A DNA stretch of 34,367 nt, taken from positions 1 through 34,367 of the forward strand of contig CAMQRS010000017.1 in the NCBI GenBank assembly GCA_947036815.1, written 5' to 3'. The notes beneath the pieces are model-generated. The model did not search any database. It was not told the DNA's origin and worked only from the letters and a program-made list of their open reading frames with translations. Positions 23,516-29,658 of the stretch are shown piece by piece (position 1 is the stretch's first letter; every line of letters begins with the position of its first letter). Source of the DNA: an uncultured Erysipelotrichaceae bacterium (GTDB taxonomy: Bacteria; Bacillota_I; Bacilli_A; Erysipelotrichales; Erysipelotrichaceae). The position numbers and the translations under genes were made by a program.

Positions 23516-26353
23516 ATGAGTAAAAATATATTATCCATTAAGGGTGCAAGAGAGAATAATCTTAAAAATATAAGTATTGATATACCAAGAGATAAAATTG
23601 TAATTATGACAGGAGTCAGCGGAAGTGGAAAAACTTCGCTAGCTTTTGACACTATTTATGCAGAAGGGCAACGTCGTTATGTTGAATCTTTAAGTGCGTA
23701 TGCAAGACAGTTTTTAGGAAATAGTGAAAAACCAGATGTTGATAGTATAGAGGGATTAAGTCCAGCTATCTCAATTGACCAAAAGACAACGAGTAATAAT
23801 CCTCGAAGTACAGTAGGGACATCTACTGAAATATATGATTATTTAAGACTGTTGTTTGCAAGAATTGGAGTGCCTTATTGTCCGATACATCATGAGCCTA
23901 TTACTTCTCAAACATTGAAACAAATGGTCGATAAAGTAATGGAATTAAAAGATAATACAAGATTACAAATATTAGCTCCTGTTGTTGATAATAAAAAAGG
24001 GACGCATAAAGAACTGATTGAAAAGCTTCAAAAAGATGGGTTTATTAGAGCCAGAATAAATCATGAAATAGTGATGTTAGAGGATATTGAAGAATTAGAA
24101 AAAAATAAAAAACATACGATAGATGTAGTAGTAGATAGAGTAATTAAAGGGGAAGATCGCTCGCGCATCCATGATTCATTGGAAACAGCAGTAAAATTGT
24201 CTGAAGGGCTTGCGATTGTTGTATCTGATGAAAAAGAGTTGTTATTTTCGAGTAATTACTCATGTAAGTTTTGTGGATTCAGTGTACCTAAGTTAGAACC
24301 GAAATTATTTTCTTTTAATGCACCCTGTGGAGCATGTCCGACTTGTAAAGGGTTAGGAGTGACACAGAAGGTGGATGTAGATTTACTTATCCCAGATAAG
24401 AGTTTATCTATCATACAAGGGGCAATAATTTACTATAAAAACATATTAAAAAAAGATAATTTAGAATGGCAGAAATTCAAATCTCTTTGTGATTATTATG
24501 CGATTGATGTAGATAAACCAATCAAGAAAATGACAAAGAAAGAAATGGATATTATTTTATATGGAAGTCGTGATCTTATTGACTATACTATGTATTCTAA
24601 GAGTGGAAGTGTAACACATCGTTTAGAATTCATTGAAGGTATTATTACATTAATTGAACGTCGTTTCATGGAAACAACAAGCTCTTTCTCAAGAGAGTGG
24701 TATGCTTCTTTTATGAGTGAAGATACATGTCCTACCTGTAGTGGTCGACGCCTAAATGAACAAGCATTATGTGTACTTGTAGGTGAAAAAAATATTGATG
24801 AATGGACAAGTATGAGTATTAAACAAGCATTGTTTTTTGTGCAAAATGTAGTGTTGAATGAGCAACAAAGACAAATCTCAAGAATGGTGTTAGTAGAAAT
24901 AGAAAACAGATTACAATTCTTATTTGATGTAGGGTTGAATTATTTAACGCTAAATAGATTAGCAGGATCATTGAGTGGAGGAGAAGCACAACGAATTCGT
25001 TTAGCTACTCAAATCGGTTCTCATTTAAGTGGTGTATTGTATGTATTGGATGAACCAAGTATTGGGTTACACCAAAGAGATAATGATCGTCTAATTGAAT
25101 CATTGAAGAAGATGCGTGATTTAGGTAATACACTAATTGTTGTTGAGCATGATGAAGATACGATGATGCAAAGTGATTACGTTATTGATATTGGACCAGG
25201 AGCTGGAATTCACGGTGGTGAAGTAATGGCGATGGGGACGGTTGAAGAAGTAATGAATGATGAACGTAGTTTAACAGGACAATATTTATCAGGTAAAAAA
25301 CAAATATACATCCCGAGTGTTAGAAAAAAAGGTAGTAAAAAGTTTATTGAAGTAATAAATGCGAGAGAAAACAACTTACAAAATGTGAGTGTGAAAGTTC
25401 CGTTACATACATTTTGTGCAGTTACGGGTGTAAGCGGAAGTGGAAAAAGTAGTTTAGTAAATGAGATTATTAGTAAAGCAATTGAAAAAGAACTTGGTAG
25501 AAGTAAAGTGAAGCCAGGTGCATATGATAAAATTAAGGGATTAAAACACATTGATAAATTAATTAATATATCACAAGATCCAATCGGTAGAACCCCAAGA
25601 AGTAATCCAGCAACATACACTGGAGTATTTGATGATATTCGAGATTTATTTGCGCAATCTCCAGAAGCGAAGATGCGTGGATATGAAAAAGGAAGATTTT
25701 CATTTAATGTAAGAGGTGGAAGATGTGAAGCTTGTCAAGGTGATGGGATTATTAAAATATCTATGCACTTCTTACCGGATGTATATGTAACGTGTGAAAA
25801 CTGTGATGGAAAACGTTACAATGAAGAAACATTACAAGTTACGTACAAAGGGAAAACAATATACGATGTGTTAGAGATGAGCGTTGAGGACTCTATATCG
25901 TTCTTCTCTAAAATTCATAAAATTAAGCATAAAGTACAAACGTTATATGATGTGGGATTGGGATATATAAAACTGGGACAAAGTGCAACTACCTTGTCTG
26001 GAGGTGAGGCGCAGCGAGTAAAATTAGCGAGTGAATTACAAAAGAAACCAACAGGAAAAACAGTATTTATCCTAGATGAGCCAACGACAGGTTTACACAC
26101 GCATGATGTGGCTATACTGTTAAAAGTACTTTGTCGTATTGTCGATAATGGAGATAGTGTTATCGTGATTGAGCATAATTTAGATGTGATAAAATGCGCA
26201 GACTACATTATTGACTTAGGTCCTGAAGGCGGAGATGAAGGCGGAACTATTATTGCCTGCGGAACTCCTGAAATGATCAGTGAATGTGAAGAATCGCATA
26301 CAGGTAGATATTTGAAGAAGGTACTAGAAAGAGGAGTTTATGAATCAAAATAA
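23516..26353 (+). CDS. uvrA: Excinuclease ABC subunit A
   Basis: A 945-residue damage-recognition ATPase of nucleotide excision repair. There are two ABC modules: Walker A GVSGSGKT at residues 33-40 and GVSGSGKSS in the second half. The signatures are LSGGEAQRIRLA and LSGGEAQRVKLA, and the Walker B-like segments are VLDEPSIGLH and ILDEPTTGLH. Zinc-binding cysteines are present in CKFCGF with CGACPTC, and in CEACQGDG with CENCDGKR. An AGAGGT site precedes the ATG. uvrB is not in the window. The stop overlaps the hprK start by 14 nt. I see no LexA-type box upstream. Confidence 0.98.
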   Translation: MSKNILSIKGARENNLKNISIDIPRDKIVIMTGVSGSGKTSLAFDTIYAEGQRRYVESLSAYARQFLGNSEKPDVDSIEGLSPAISIDQKTTSNNPRSTVGTSTEIYDYLRLLFARIGVPYCPIHHEPITSQTLKQMVDKVMELKDNTRLQILAPVVDNKKGTHKELIEKLQKDGFIRARINHEIVMLEDIEELEKNKKHTIDVVVDRVIKGEDRSRIHDSLETAVKLSEGLAIVVSDEKELLFSSNYSCKFCGFSVPKLEPKLFSFNAPCGACPTCKGLGVTQKVDVDLLIPDKSLSIIQGAIIYYKNILKKDNLEWQKFKSLCDYYAIDVDKPIKKMTKKEMDIILYGSRDLIDYTMYSKSGSVTHRLEFIEGIITLIERRFMETTSSFSREWYASFMSEDTCPTCSGRRLNEQALCVLVGEKNIDEWTSMSIKQALFFVQNVVLNEQQRQISRMVLVEIENRLQFLFDVGLNYLTLNRLAGSLSGGEAQRIRLATQIGSHLSGVLYVLDEPSIGLHQRDNDRLIESLKKMRDLGNTLIVVEHDEDTMMQSDYVIDIGPGAGIHGGEVMAMGTVEEVMNDERSLTGQYLSGKKQIYIPSVRKKGSKKFIEVINARENNLQNVSVKVPLHTFCAVTGVSGSGKSSLVNEIISKAIEKELGRSKVKPGAYDKIKGLKHIDKLINISQDPIGRTPRSNPATYTGVFDDIRDLFAQSPEAKMRGYEKGRFSFNVRGGRCEACQGDGIIKISMHFLPDVYVTCENCDGKRYNEETLQVTYKGKTIYDVLEMSVEDSISFFSKIHKIKHKVQTLYDVGLGYIKLGQSATTLSGGEAQRVKLASELQKKPTGKTVFILDEPTTGLHTHDVAILLKVLCRIVDNGDSVIVIEHNLDVIKCADYIIDLGPEGGDEGGTIIACGTPEMISECEESHTGRYLKKVLERGVYESK

Positions 26354-27275
26354 AACATATGTAAAAGAGATGCTAAGTCATTTCAATTTCGAAGTTTTAT
26401 GCGGAGATGATACTTCGTTTGAAAGAGAAATTACCATTCCAGATGTGAATCGTCCGGGATTAGAATTAGCAGGATACTATGATTATTCTCAACAAAAGAG
26501 AATTATCGTATTAGGAGATAAAGAAATAGAATATATTAAAACAATGCAAGAAGAGCATAAATATTATGCTTTTGATTTTATTACTAATGAAGAAACACCA
26601 GCAATTATTATATCTAGAAAACATGAATGTCCGAAAGAATTATTGATTGTAGCGAAAGAAAAAAAATTTCCAGTGTTCAAATCACATCAACATACGAGCC
26701 AATTAATAGTGAATTTGATTAGTTTCTTAGATGAGCATTTGGCTTTAAATGACTGTTTCCATGGAGTACTATTGAGTATGTATGGAAAAGGAGTTCTGAT
26801 TGAAGGAGAAAGCGGTATTGGGAAGAGTGAGGTTGCGCTAGAATTAATGCGTAGAGGTCACCAACTCGTAGCCGATGATAGAGTGGATGTATATTCTGTA
26901 CACAATACAGTATATGGAAAAGCTCCGGATATTTTAGAAGGAATGTTGGAGATTAGAGGAGTTGGAATTATTGATGTTGCAAGAATGTATGGAGTAAACT
27001 CGATTCTAAAGAAAAGTAAGTTAGATGTAGTGATCTCATTATCTGCATGGAATCATGAAAACACGTATGACCGTGTAGGGATTGAAGCAACTAAATATGA
27101 AACTATTTTAGATATAGAAATACCGATGATAAACTTACCTATTCGAGAAGGAAGAAGCATGGGGATTGTAATTGAAGCGGCTGTGTCTAATATTATACTA
27201 AGAGAGAATGGATTCGACAGCGCGAAGGAATTTGAAAATAAAGTATTAGAATTTATAGAACAACAACGAACATAA
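26340..27275 (+). CDS. hprK: HPr kinase/phosphorylase
   Basis: A 311-residue bifunctional enzyme that phosphorylates HPr at Ser46 and reverses this by phosphorolysis, releasing pyrophosphate. It is the sensor of Firmicute carbon catabolite control. The P-loop is GESGIGKS (156-163), the catalytic His is in CFHGVLL (H141), and the HprK signature LEIRGVGIIDV is at 203-213. The N-terminal DRTGG-like domain spans about 1-130. A GAGGAG site precedes the ATG, which lies inside uvrA. The lgt-ppaX fusion follows after 11 bp, as in the hprK-lgt-ppaX order of Bacillus. Confidence 0.97.
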   Translation: MNQNKTYVKEMLSHFNFEVLCGDDTSFEREITIPDVNRPGLELAGYYDYSQQKRIIVLGDKEIEYIKTMQEEHKYYAFDFITNEETPAIIISRKHECPKELLIVAKEKKFPVFKSHQHTSQLIVNLISFLDEHLALNDCFHGVLLSMYGKGVLIEGESGIGKSEVALELMRRGHQLVADDRVDVYSVHNTVYGKAPDILEGMLEIRGVGIIDVARMYGVNSILKKSKLDVVISLSAWNHENTYDRVGIEATKYETILDIEIPMINLPIREGRSMGIVIEAAVSNIILRENGFDSAKEFENKVLEFIEQQRT

Positions 27276-27286
27276 GGGGGAACTAT

Positions 27287-28768
27287 ATGGATTTTTTTCC
27301 AACATTTAATACGTTTTTAGAAATTAATTTATTTGGATTATCACTTAGTATTCAGTGGTATGCTGTATTTATTTTAACAGCAGCTTATCTAGCTTATTTT
27401 ATCTCATTAAATAATGCGACCAAACTAGGATATAAAAAAACAATATTAGAAGATTATTTTCTAGTAATGCTTCCATTAGCGATAGTAGGAGCCAGATTAT
27501 ACTACTGCTTATTTGAGTGGGAGCGATACATTAGAGAACCTTTACGTATATTGTATATATGGGAAGGTGGATTAGCGATACATGGTGGAATCATTGCCGG
27601 TGTTGCTTACGCATATTATTATTTTAGAAAGCATGGATATAATTTACTGCGATTAGGAGATTGTGTCTTACCTAACCTAATGCTGGCACAAGTAATTGGT
27701 AGATTTGGGAATTTCATGAATCATGAAGCTTATGGAAATATTGTGGATGAATCTTTCTATAATAATTATCCTGCTTTTATAAAAGATAATATGTTTATTG
27801 ATGGATTTTATCGTCAACCTACCTTCTTATTTGAGGCTATGGGCAATTTAGTTGGATTCTTTTTTATCATAACTATTTTCAAAAAATACCTTTGGAAAAA
27901 AAGGGGGGACTTATGTTATGCCTATGCAATATGGTATGGTGGAGTACGCTTTTTTGTAGAGTCATTAAGAAGTGATTCATTAATGTTCTTTGGATTAAGA
28001 ATAGCCCAAATTGTATCGCTTATATTTATATTCATTGGATTATTAGGTTATTTTGGTGTATTTGATAGAATGTTTAAAAATTATTATCCATTTAAAAAAG
28101 AGAAGCCAACCATATTATTTGATTTTGATGGGACATTAGCGGATACCTATCCATTGATATACCAAAGTTTTAGACATACATTTAATGTGCACCCATTACC
28201 TTATGAAGTAAGTGATGAAGAAATACAATCGTATTTTGGGCCGCCATTAAAGGCGACGTTTGCGAAACATTATTCACCAGATATGTTTGAAACAGTGTTA
28301 ACTACATATCGAACACATAATCATGCAAACCACGATGAATACGTGAAACCACTGCCGAATGCGATAGAATTGTTGACGTATTTAAAAGAAAATGAATACG
28401 AGATGGGTATTGTCACAAGTAAATTAAAAGTGGCTGCACATCTTGGGTTAAAAGTATGTGAGATGGAGCAATTTTTTGATGTAGTTATTTGTGGGGAGGA
28501 TGTTGAAAAACATAAGCCACATCCGGAACCATTATTAAAAGCATGTGAATTAATGCAAGTTACTCATGATAACTTAATTTATGTAGGAGATACAGTGGGT
28601 GATGTAATGAGTGCCAAAAATATGGGTACTTTCAGTATTGCGTACATATCAAGTACATTTAATGAAAAAGCAATACGTGAAGTAAGTCCAAGTCGAATTA
28701 TATATGATTTGAATGAAATTAAAGAAATTTTAAAGGAGGATATTGAATGGAGCGAATTTTTGATTTAG
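27287..28768 (+). CDS. lgt-ppaX: Fused prolipoprotein diacylglyceryl transferase and PpaX-like HAD phosphatase
   Basis: 493 residues in one open frame. Residues 1-262 are a complete Lgt, the membrane enzyme that adds diacylglycerol to lipobox cysteines. It has several helices, HGGIIAG (H99), the signature GRFGNFMNHE (138-147, R139), and a late Arg in GGVRFF (R221). After a short basic linker (KNYYPFKKEKP, ~264-274) comes a full HAD phosphatase. Its motifs are LFDFDGTLAD with D279/D281, T377 in GIVTSK, K410 in KHKPHP, and GDTVGD (434-439). In Bacillus lgt and ppaX are separate neighbours after hprK; PpaX cleaves pyrophosphate made by HprK. Position supports PpaX, but a phosphoglycolate phosphatase is possible. 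The start has AGGGGGA. It overlaps trxB by 22 nt. Confidence 0.92.
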   Translation: MDFFPTFNTFLEINLFGLSLSIQWYAVFILTAAYLAYFISLNNATKLGYKKTILEDYFLVMLPLAIVGARLYYCLFEWERYIREPLRILYIWEGGLAIHGGIIAGVAYAYYYFRKHGYNLLRLGDCVLPNLMLAQVIGRFGNFMNHEAYGNIVDESFYNNYPAFIKDNMFIDGFYRQPTFLFEAMGNLVGFFFIITIFKKYLWKKRGDLCYAYAIWYGGVRFFVESLRSDSLMFFGLRIAQIVSLIFIFIGLLGYFGVFDRMFKNYYPFKKEKPTILFDFDGTLADTYPLIYQSFRHTFNVHPLPYEVSDEEIQSYFGPPLKATFAKHYSPDMFETVLTTYRTHNHANHDEYVKPLPNAIELLTYLKENEYEMGIVTSKLKVAAHLGLKVCEMEQFFDVVICGEDVEKHKPHPEPLLKACELMQVTHDNLIYVGDTVGDVMSAKNMGTFSIAYISSTFNEKAIREVSPSRIIYDLNEIKEILKEDIEWSEFLI

Positions 28769-29658
28769 TAATCGTTGGAGCAGGTCCAGCAGGTATGAGC
28801 GCAGCAATATATGCGTCAAGAGCAGGTTTAACAACGTTAATGATAGAGATGGGGGCCCCTGGTGGAAAACTAGTGAAAACTCATGAGATTAGTAATTATC
28901 CTGGAATTGAAACAATTAATGGTGCGAATCTTGCAATGCAAATGTTTAATCATTCAACTAGTTTTAGTGCTCAATATGTATATGGTAATGTAGTGAACAT
29001 AGTAGATGGTGAAACGAAACAAGTTGTATGTGACGACGCTACTTACGAATGTAAAGCAATCATTATTGCGAGTGGGACACAAGAAAAATTATTGGGAATT
29101 GCAGGAGAAGAAGAAAATGTGGGTCGTGGTGTATCTTATTGTGCGGTCTGTGATGGAGCTTTCTTTAAAGATGAAGAAGTTGCAGTTATAGGTGCTGGAA
29201 ATGCAGCGTTAGAAGAAGCGTTGTATTTAACTCAATTTGCGAGTAAAGTCCATGTAGTTATGAGAAGAGATGTATTTAGAGCTGATCAAATCATTGTGGA
29301 TAAAATAATCCAAAATGAAAAAGTGATTGTACATCAAAAATATATTCCACTAGAAATTACATCGATGAATAACAAGGTAGATGGAATTGTAGTAAAATCA
29401 AATGAAGAAACTGAAACAATAAAAGTAAAAGGAATCTTTCCGTATATCGGAGCAGATCCAATGACACACTTTGTGAATCATTTAGATATATTGAATGATC
29501 ATAAATATATTATTGTTGATGAAAATATGGAAACAAAATATAAAGGTATTTATGGTGCAGGAGATGTATGTCAAAAAGGATTAAGACAAGTGGTAACAGC
29601 AGTAAATGATGGTGCTATCGCAGCTCAACATGCATTTCACCAAATTAAAGGAATGTAA
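28747..29658 (+). CDS. trxB: Thioredoxin-disulfide reductase
   Basis: A 303-residue flavoprotein that uses NADPH to reduce thioredoxin. The FAD-binding GAGPAGM is at 11-17, the redox-active CAVC at 132-135 within YCAVCDG, the NADPH-binding GAGNAALEEA near 152, and the second FAD motif GIYGAGDV near the C-terminus. AAAGGAGG lies 6-7 bases before the ATG, inside the end of lgt-ppaX, so translation is coupled. It ends at a strong terminator and closes the operon from uvrA onward. Confidence 0.96.
   Translation: MERIFDLVIVGAGPAGMSAAIYASRAGLTTLMIEMGAPGGKLVKTHEISNYPGIETINGANLAMQMFNHSTSFSAQYVYGNVVNIVDGETKQVVCDDATYECKAIIIASGTQEKLLGIAGEEENVGRGVSYCAVCDGAFFKDEEVAVIGAGNAALEEALYLTQFASKVHVVMRRDVFRADQIIVDKIIQNEKVIVHQKYIPLEITSMNNKVDGIVVKSNEETETIKVKGIFPYIGADPMTHFVNHLDILNDHKYIIVDENMETKYKGIYGAGDVCQKGLRQVVTAVNDGAIAAQHAFHQIKGM

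Follow-up and report, generated by a model that had tools for sequence, protein, structure and literature searches.

A recurrent fusion of Lgt with a PpaX-type HAD phosphatase behind hprK in Erysipelotrichaceae, and an Lgt body conserved after loss of its active site

The genes lgt and ppaX are conserved in Gram-positive bacteria, and their neighbourhood has no clear explanation. In the window (the whole stretch of 34,367 nucleotides analysed here, from an uncultured Erysipelotrichaceae bacterium), a prolipoprotein diacylglyceryl transferase (Lgt) and a PpaX-type HAD phosphatase were encoded by one gene directly behind hprK. The features of the locus were as follows:

23516..26353, forward strand: uvrA, which opens the conserved block and is the basis of the organism tree
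26340..27275, forward strand: hprK, HPr kinase/phosphorylase, 311 aa, with Pfam Hpr_kinase_N and Hpr_kinase_C and TIGR00679 at 348 bits
27287..28768, forward strand: fusion gene of lgt and a ppaX-type HAD (lgt::HAD), 493 aa, a single open frame from ATG to TAG
27287..28051, forward strand: Lgt half, residues 1-255, transmembrane body with the signature GRFGNFMNHEAYG (R139-G150), R221 and E225
28052..28108, forward strand: short basic linker, residues 256-274, predicted cytoplasmic
28109..28738, forward strand: HAD phosphatase half of PpaX type, residues 275-484, with D279/D281, T377, K410 and D435/D439
28739..28765, forward strand: C-terminal aromatic tail DIEWSEFLI, residues 485-493, conserved with the membrane half in the family of the window (f1)
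28747..29658, forward strand: trxB, thioredoxin reductase, overlapping the 3' end of the fusion gene by 22 bp in another frame

The gene order of the block was uvrA-hprK-[lgt::HAD]-trxB-rapZ-yvcK-whiA. A gap of 11 bp separated hprK from the fusion gene, through which the window HAD lies in the hprK operon. No internal stop was found in ORF 27287..28768. Pfam LGT (PF01790) matched residues 16-254 (E 1.5e-61, 208 bits, cut-off 24.9), the NCBIfam lgt model TIGR00544 scored 177 bits, above its cut-off of 118.9, and Pfam HAD_2 matched residues 276-452 (E 4.3e-52). The best HAD model in NCBIfam was PpaX NF009804 with 181 bits, which is below its equivalog cut-off of 218 bits. The Lgt signature GRxGNFxNxExxG was present in the window protein together with the equivalents of E. 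coli R239 and E243, and the equivalent of H103 was found as H99 (27581-27583) in an HGGL motif. The phosphatase half carried the DxD, T/S, K and D(x3)D motifs of HAD subfamily IA with a cap, and the fold agreed. A reading made from the sequence only had described a complete Lgt and a complete, PpaX-like HAD phosphatase in a single frame directly downstream of hprK; the ORF, the Pfam and NCBIfam matches and the TIGR00679 score of the upstream gene bore this out, and the residues that it named were found where it had placed them.

An AlphaFold2 model of the fusion was confident throughout, including the linker (mean pLDDT 91.6, pTM 0.85, linker pLDDT about 92), and a Foldseek search with this model matched E. 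coli Lgt (5azb) and HAD phosphatases. The C-terminal transmembrane helix of the Lgt half comprised residues 239-255, and the linker stretch (residues 254-276) had a mean net charge of +3.4 across f1 fusions. Because a short basic linker follows the last transmembrane helix, the HAD domain is predicted by the positive-inside rule to lie on the cytoplasmic side of the membrane; the catalytic site of E. coli Lgt faces the periplasm (PMC4728403). This topology agreed with the earlier claim that the HAD domain would be cytoplasmic and hence held at the membrane. A membrane localisation of the PpaX-type phosphatase is supported, and it is its placement at the membrane that we infer.

Other genomes with this domain pair were sought. 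The whole fusion was present in one frame in 146 of the 196 sampled genomes of the same family and in 49 of 60 genera (Erysipelotrichales), with hprK upstream at nearly all same-family loci. The window comes from a draft assembly of 68 contigs, but because the same one-frame fusion recurs across genomes of the family, and single-frame fusions were found in three other families, an assembly frameshift is ruled out and the chance that an artefact joined two genes is negligible. The Lgt-HAD fusion is a real, old and recurrent architecture, and no prior description of an Lgt-HAD/PpaX fusion was found in the literature searched (open-licence papers only). As a separate observation, the fusion in genome G077 (L076 4970-6255) was split: the reading frame changes at a base that is ambiguous (translated as X), and a fault of the assembly is the likeliest cause.

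Residue conservation was counted in an alignment of 122 full-length fusions. R139, N142, N145, E147, G150, R221 and E225 of the Lgt half and D279, D281, K410, D435 and D439 of the HAD half were invariant in 122/122, while HAD position 377 varied between T and S. E. coli Lgt (5azb/5azc) shares with the fusion the fold, the signature motif and the catalytic R143, N146, N149, E151, R239 and E243 but has no C-terminal HAD, and several of the E. coli counterparts of the invariant Lgt residues are essential (PMC4728403). The position of E. coli H103 was different. Substitutions of this residue with A, N, Q, R or Y all fail in E. coli (PMC4728403), whereas position 99 of the fusions was H in 61, Q in 53, Y in 6 and V in 2 of the 122 with the other Lgt residues invariant. 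The fusion was the sole Lgt-family protein above the Pfam cut-off in 66 of the 74 f1 genomes with an intact fusion, the genome of the window included, and for this reason the Lgt half is presumably active.

Comparison with known systems showed that the window has hprK, lgt and a PpaX-type HAD in the same order and direction as the B. subtilis hprK-lgt-yvoD-yvoE(ppaX)-yvoF operon. In B. subtilis, however, Lgt and YvoE are separate proteins, whereas in the window trxB directly follows the fusion and leaves no room for yvoD. The sequence-only reading had compared the fusion with separate Bacillus genes after hprK, which was correct, but had made lgt and ppaX direct neighbours, which was not, since yvoD, encoding a membrane protein, lies between lgt and yvoE/ppaX (PMC12345273). 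A pyrophosphatase is likewise brought next to HprK in the Brucella HprK/P-NPr-Ppa case (PMC2937029), but there the association is non-covalent and comes from yeast two-hybrid, the enzyme is a different inorganic pyrophosphatase (Ppa) and no Lgt is involved. Acinetobacter MtlD (7ocq etc.), a match of the fold search, likewise joins a HAD phosphatase to another enzyme, a dehydrogenase. The HAD of MtlD acts on the product of its partner (mannitol 1-phosphate), whereas no shared chemistry is apparent between Lgt and the HAD and the partner is a membrane protein. Compared with PpaX as modelled by NF009804, the window HAD scored below the cut-off, was fused to a membrane enzyme and had the extra C-terminal aromatic tail.

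Outside f1, lgt and the HAD gene were adjacent but separate in the sister family f2 (genera g71 and g80), f7 and f12, and adjacent separate genes were also seen in f3 and f8. Fused genes were found in f14 (all loci read), in genera g90 and g140 of f3 but not in g81 and g128, and in genus g92 of f8; at the loci read in f8 relatives the genes were not fused. In unfused relatives the two genes ran in the same direction with only tens of bases between them, and at times shared a reading frame. A fusion in genus g71 (f2), suggested by the open-frame column, was rejected, as a stop and 60 bases separate the two genes. The UvrA tree required a minimum of four fused/separate changes, with each fused group nested apart; this count by itself gives no direction (fusion versus fission), and on the assumption that fusion is the commoner event and fission the rarer, adjacent genes were joined on at least four occasions (f1, f14, f3 g90 and g140, f8 g92). 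N-terminal extensions of about 30-170 residues with hydrophobic stretches were also noted ahead of the Lgt domain in several fused and separate Lgt proteins (L231 and L232 in f8; L225, L226 and L229 in f14; L214, L220-L223, L230 and L236 in f3).

The best explanation, which we consider reasonably probable, is that two independent activities are carried on one chain, an Lgt platform and a membrane-held cytoplasmic PpaX-type phosphatase that probably acts on pyrophosphate. The fusion gene would encode one bifunctional inner-membrane protein. Its N-terminal half would be the normal Lgt of the cell, with an outward-facing active site that transfers diacylglyceryl to prolipoproteins, and its C-terminal half would be a PpaX-type HAD phosphatase in the cytoplasm, which the last Lgt helix and the short basic linker would tether. 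The two reactions would run independently on opposite faces of the membrane, and the fusion would couple location and assembly rather than chemistry. In the cytoplasm, the most likely task would be the hydrolysis of pyrophosphate, and in hprK-bearing lineages its source would be the phosphorolysis of P-Ser-HPr by HprK, close to the membrane. As with the membrane placement, the pyrophosphate substrate and the link to HprK are what we infer.

Lineages in which one half had decayed showed that the two halves are separable. In genera g31, g53, g28 and g4 (15 genomes read), the gene after hprK kept a hydrophobic N-terminal body and the HAD, and the Lgt signature and catalytic residues were gone; at least three lineages lost Lgt catalysis and kept the HAD intact. 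In genera g37, g51 and g13 the Lgt was intact and the HAD was dead, having shrunk to about 95-118 aa without the catalytic Asp. This loss occurred in at least two lineages, as g51 and g13 form one small group on the HprK tree. The dead-HAD remnant retained the first strand, the second half of the Rossmann fold and the C-terminal tail, its dN/dS came from a single close pair with very few differences, and hprK was still upstream in all three genera. The link to lipoprotein maturation that had been proposed for the phosphatase is not supported in view of these reciprocal losses. In g5 and in some members of g4 and g31, hprK was immediately followed by a free HAD of about 213-285 aa, such that a HAD that leaves Lgt stays with hprK. 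With the HAD released from the membrane in these three lineages, anchoring can be dispensed with, even if it is favoured in some lineages. In g56 (G088) both halves were absent and hprK abutted trxB.

Two further observations were made in these genomes. Loci L105 and L106 (g31; G165 and G184), which have a freed HAD behind hprK, also encoded a second HAD homologue of 279-300 aa with FNFDGT or FSFDGT, in which the first Asp is replaced, perhaps a catalytically dead paralogue. In genomes G015 and G055, rated 98-99% complete, hprK, Lgt and several families of pyrophosphatase were all without a match, and these two genomes may be misbinned or unusual.

Pfam LGT still matched the dead Lgt body in 12/12 proteins scanned (g31, g53), and the model of L060 kept the Lgt helix order and matched 5azb. 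The omega values of the dead Lgt half, from four close pairs all of genus g31, were 0.053, 0.117, 0.146 and 0.134, a range of 0.05-0.15 versus 0.02-0.08 for the HAD half. Because omega is far below 1, the dead Lgt body is under purifying selection and kept for something other than catalysis, and anchoring of the HAD is the simplest reading of its retention. Adequately assembled dead-Lgt genomes had a separate Lgt elsewhere, of about 260 aa, 25-30% identical and with a signature of another type (N142>C, N145>A, E147>C; GRxGC..AGCCxG; L112-L130). The nearest NCBIfam model of this Cys-type Lgt was NF000778, with a score below its cut-off. Where the fused Lgt is dead or lost, the Cys-type protein is likely the only working Lgt of the genome.

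The C-terminal tail gave a second indication of a structural role. Its consensus in alignment A1 was KEDxxW. A W or F at 6-7 residues from the C-terminus was present in 122/134 membrane-anchored f1 proteins (dead-Lgt and dead-HAD proteins included) versus 2/12 HAD-only rows, with a p value of 4e-8 that, like the other tail p-values, is optimistic owing to phylogenetic dependence. Two of the 12 HAD-only rows were misfiled (L076, a frameshifted fragment, and L213, an f2 gene), and without both the count was 1/10. In the independent fusions outside f1 the aromatic tail was found in 0/20. The overlapping trxB start codon (A-TGG) falls on the TGG codon and accounts for part of the W conservation. 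The tail is only in part a by-product of this overlap, as the aromatic residue persisted without a trxB overlap in 30/34 anchored versus 0/6 HAD-only proteins, and the W codons of genus g31 were mostly without a preceding A. One possibility is that the tail docks onto the membrane half.

The suggestion that the coupling may be structural gained support from both the selection on the Lgt body after loss of its active site and the tail that travels with the membrane half. A more specific version is that the Lgt body is a non-catalytic membrane platform for the PpaX-type phosphatase, with the aromatic tail as a C-terminal latch, and was kept after catalysis moved to another gene; we put this forward tentatively, as possible but short of probable. 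The fusion, its recurrence, the intact catalytic residues, the separable halves and the purifying selection on an Lgt body that has lost catalysis are all established at the sequence level, and the strongest new point is the conservation of the Lgt body, apparently as a platform, after its own activity was lost.

For the substrate, NF009804 PpaX was matched by 27/27 separate homologues and was the best HAD model in every fused or separate protein for which scores were shown, about 30-145 bits above the phosphoglycolate phosphatase models. Separate orthologues in f2, f7 and f12 scored 230-259 bits, exceeding the cut-off of 218. The lowest scores (107-150 bits) were those of f8, where hprK was found in none of the genomes tested and the HAD was beside or fused to Lgt wherever the locus was read. 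The hprK operon of B. subtilis encodes the pyrophosphatase YvoE/PpaX, whose removal of pyrophosphate was proposed to pull HprK toward dephosphorylation (PMC2937029); deletion of yvoE does not block lipoprotein N-acetylation (PMC12345273). From the family models, pyrophosphate near HprK is the leading substrate hypothesis. Other pyrophosphatases (PpaC-type or family I) were present in nearly all genomes tested, with PpaC-type PF02833 in the genome of the window. The HAD as the only pyrophosphatase was rejected on this ground, and given how common other soluble pyrophosphatases are in these genomes, bulk pyrophosphate probably does not depend on the HAD domain. A strict HprK accessory was also rejected, as f8 keeps the HAD without hprK and hprK persists in HAD-dead genera. 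That PpaX serves HprK, as first proposed, is plausible but not obligate, and with the other pyrophosphatases and f8 taken together, an HprK accessory is not the only possible role of the HAD.

It is conceivable, if unlikely, that the HAD is a housekeeping metabolite phosphatase for phosphoglycolate or another small phosphoester, with a merely historical place near hprK and lgt. Members of HAD subfamily IA are promiscuous, and the sub-cut-off score of the window HAD, its retention in f8 and the presence of other pyrophosphatases would all fit. Against these stand the lead of the PpaX models over phosphoglycolate phosphatase wherever scores were shown, the orthologues of f2, f7 and f12 that exceed the PpaX cut-off, and the freed HADs that remain directly behind hprK.

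The fusion could also be no more than an operon accident, in which a stop codon was lost between co-transcribed neighbours and the product is tolerated or saves translational coupling, with a functionless tether. The closely spaced, co-directional and sometimes in-frame genes of unfused relatives would fit such an event, and the halves do decay or separate independently. We regard this as improbable, because precisely lgt and the HAD were joined at least four times independently, the fusion was retained across 49 of 60 genera, the dead Lgt body is under purifying selection, and the tail goes with the membrane half even in the absence of a trxB overlap. Channelled removal of a by-product, in which the HAD would hydrolyse the glycerol 1-phosphate that leaves Lgt (PMC4728403), would suit the f8 HAD that follows lgt even without hprK, but is very improbable given a periplasmic Lgt site (PMC4728403) and a predicted cytoplasmic HAD, a HAD that stays intact where the catalytic residues are gone from the fused Lgt, and PpaX as its best model.

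The question of why ppaX is beside lgt and hprK becomes testable, as at least four fusions that were then dissected by evolution provide a natural set of mutants. For annotation, caution is required, as dead Lgt proteins match Pfam Lgt without an active site, and in such species lipoprotein modification must come from another, Cys-type Lgt. The findings raise the question of whether pyrophosphate removal, and hence carbon catabolite control, is localised at the membrane. If the platform reading is true, P-Ser-HPr control would be membrane-localised in these bacteria and the dead Lgt would be a new class of anchor protein.
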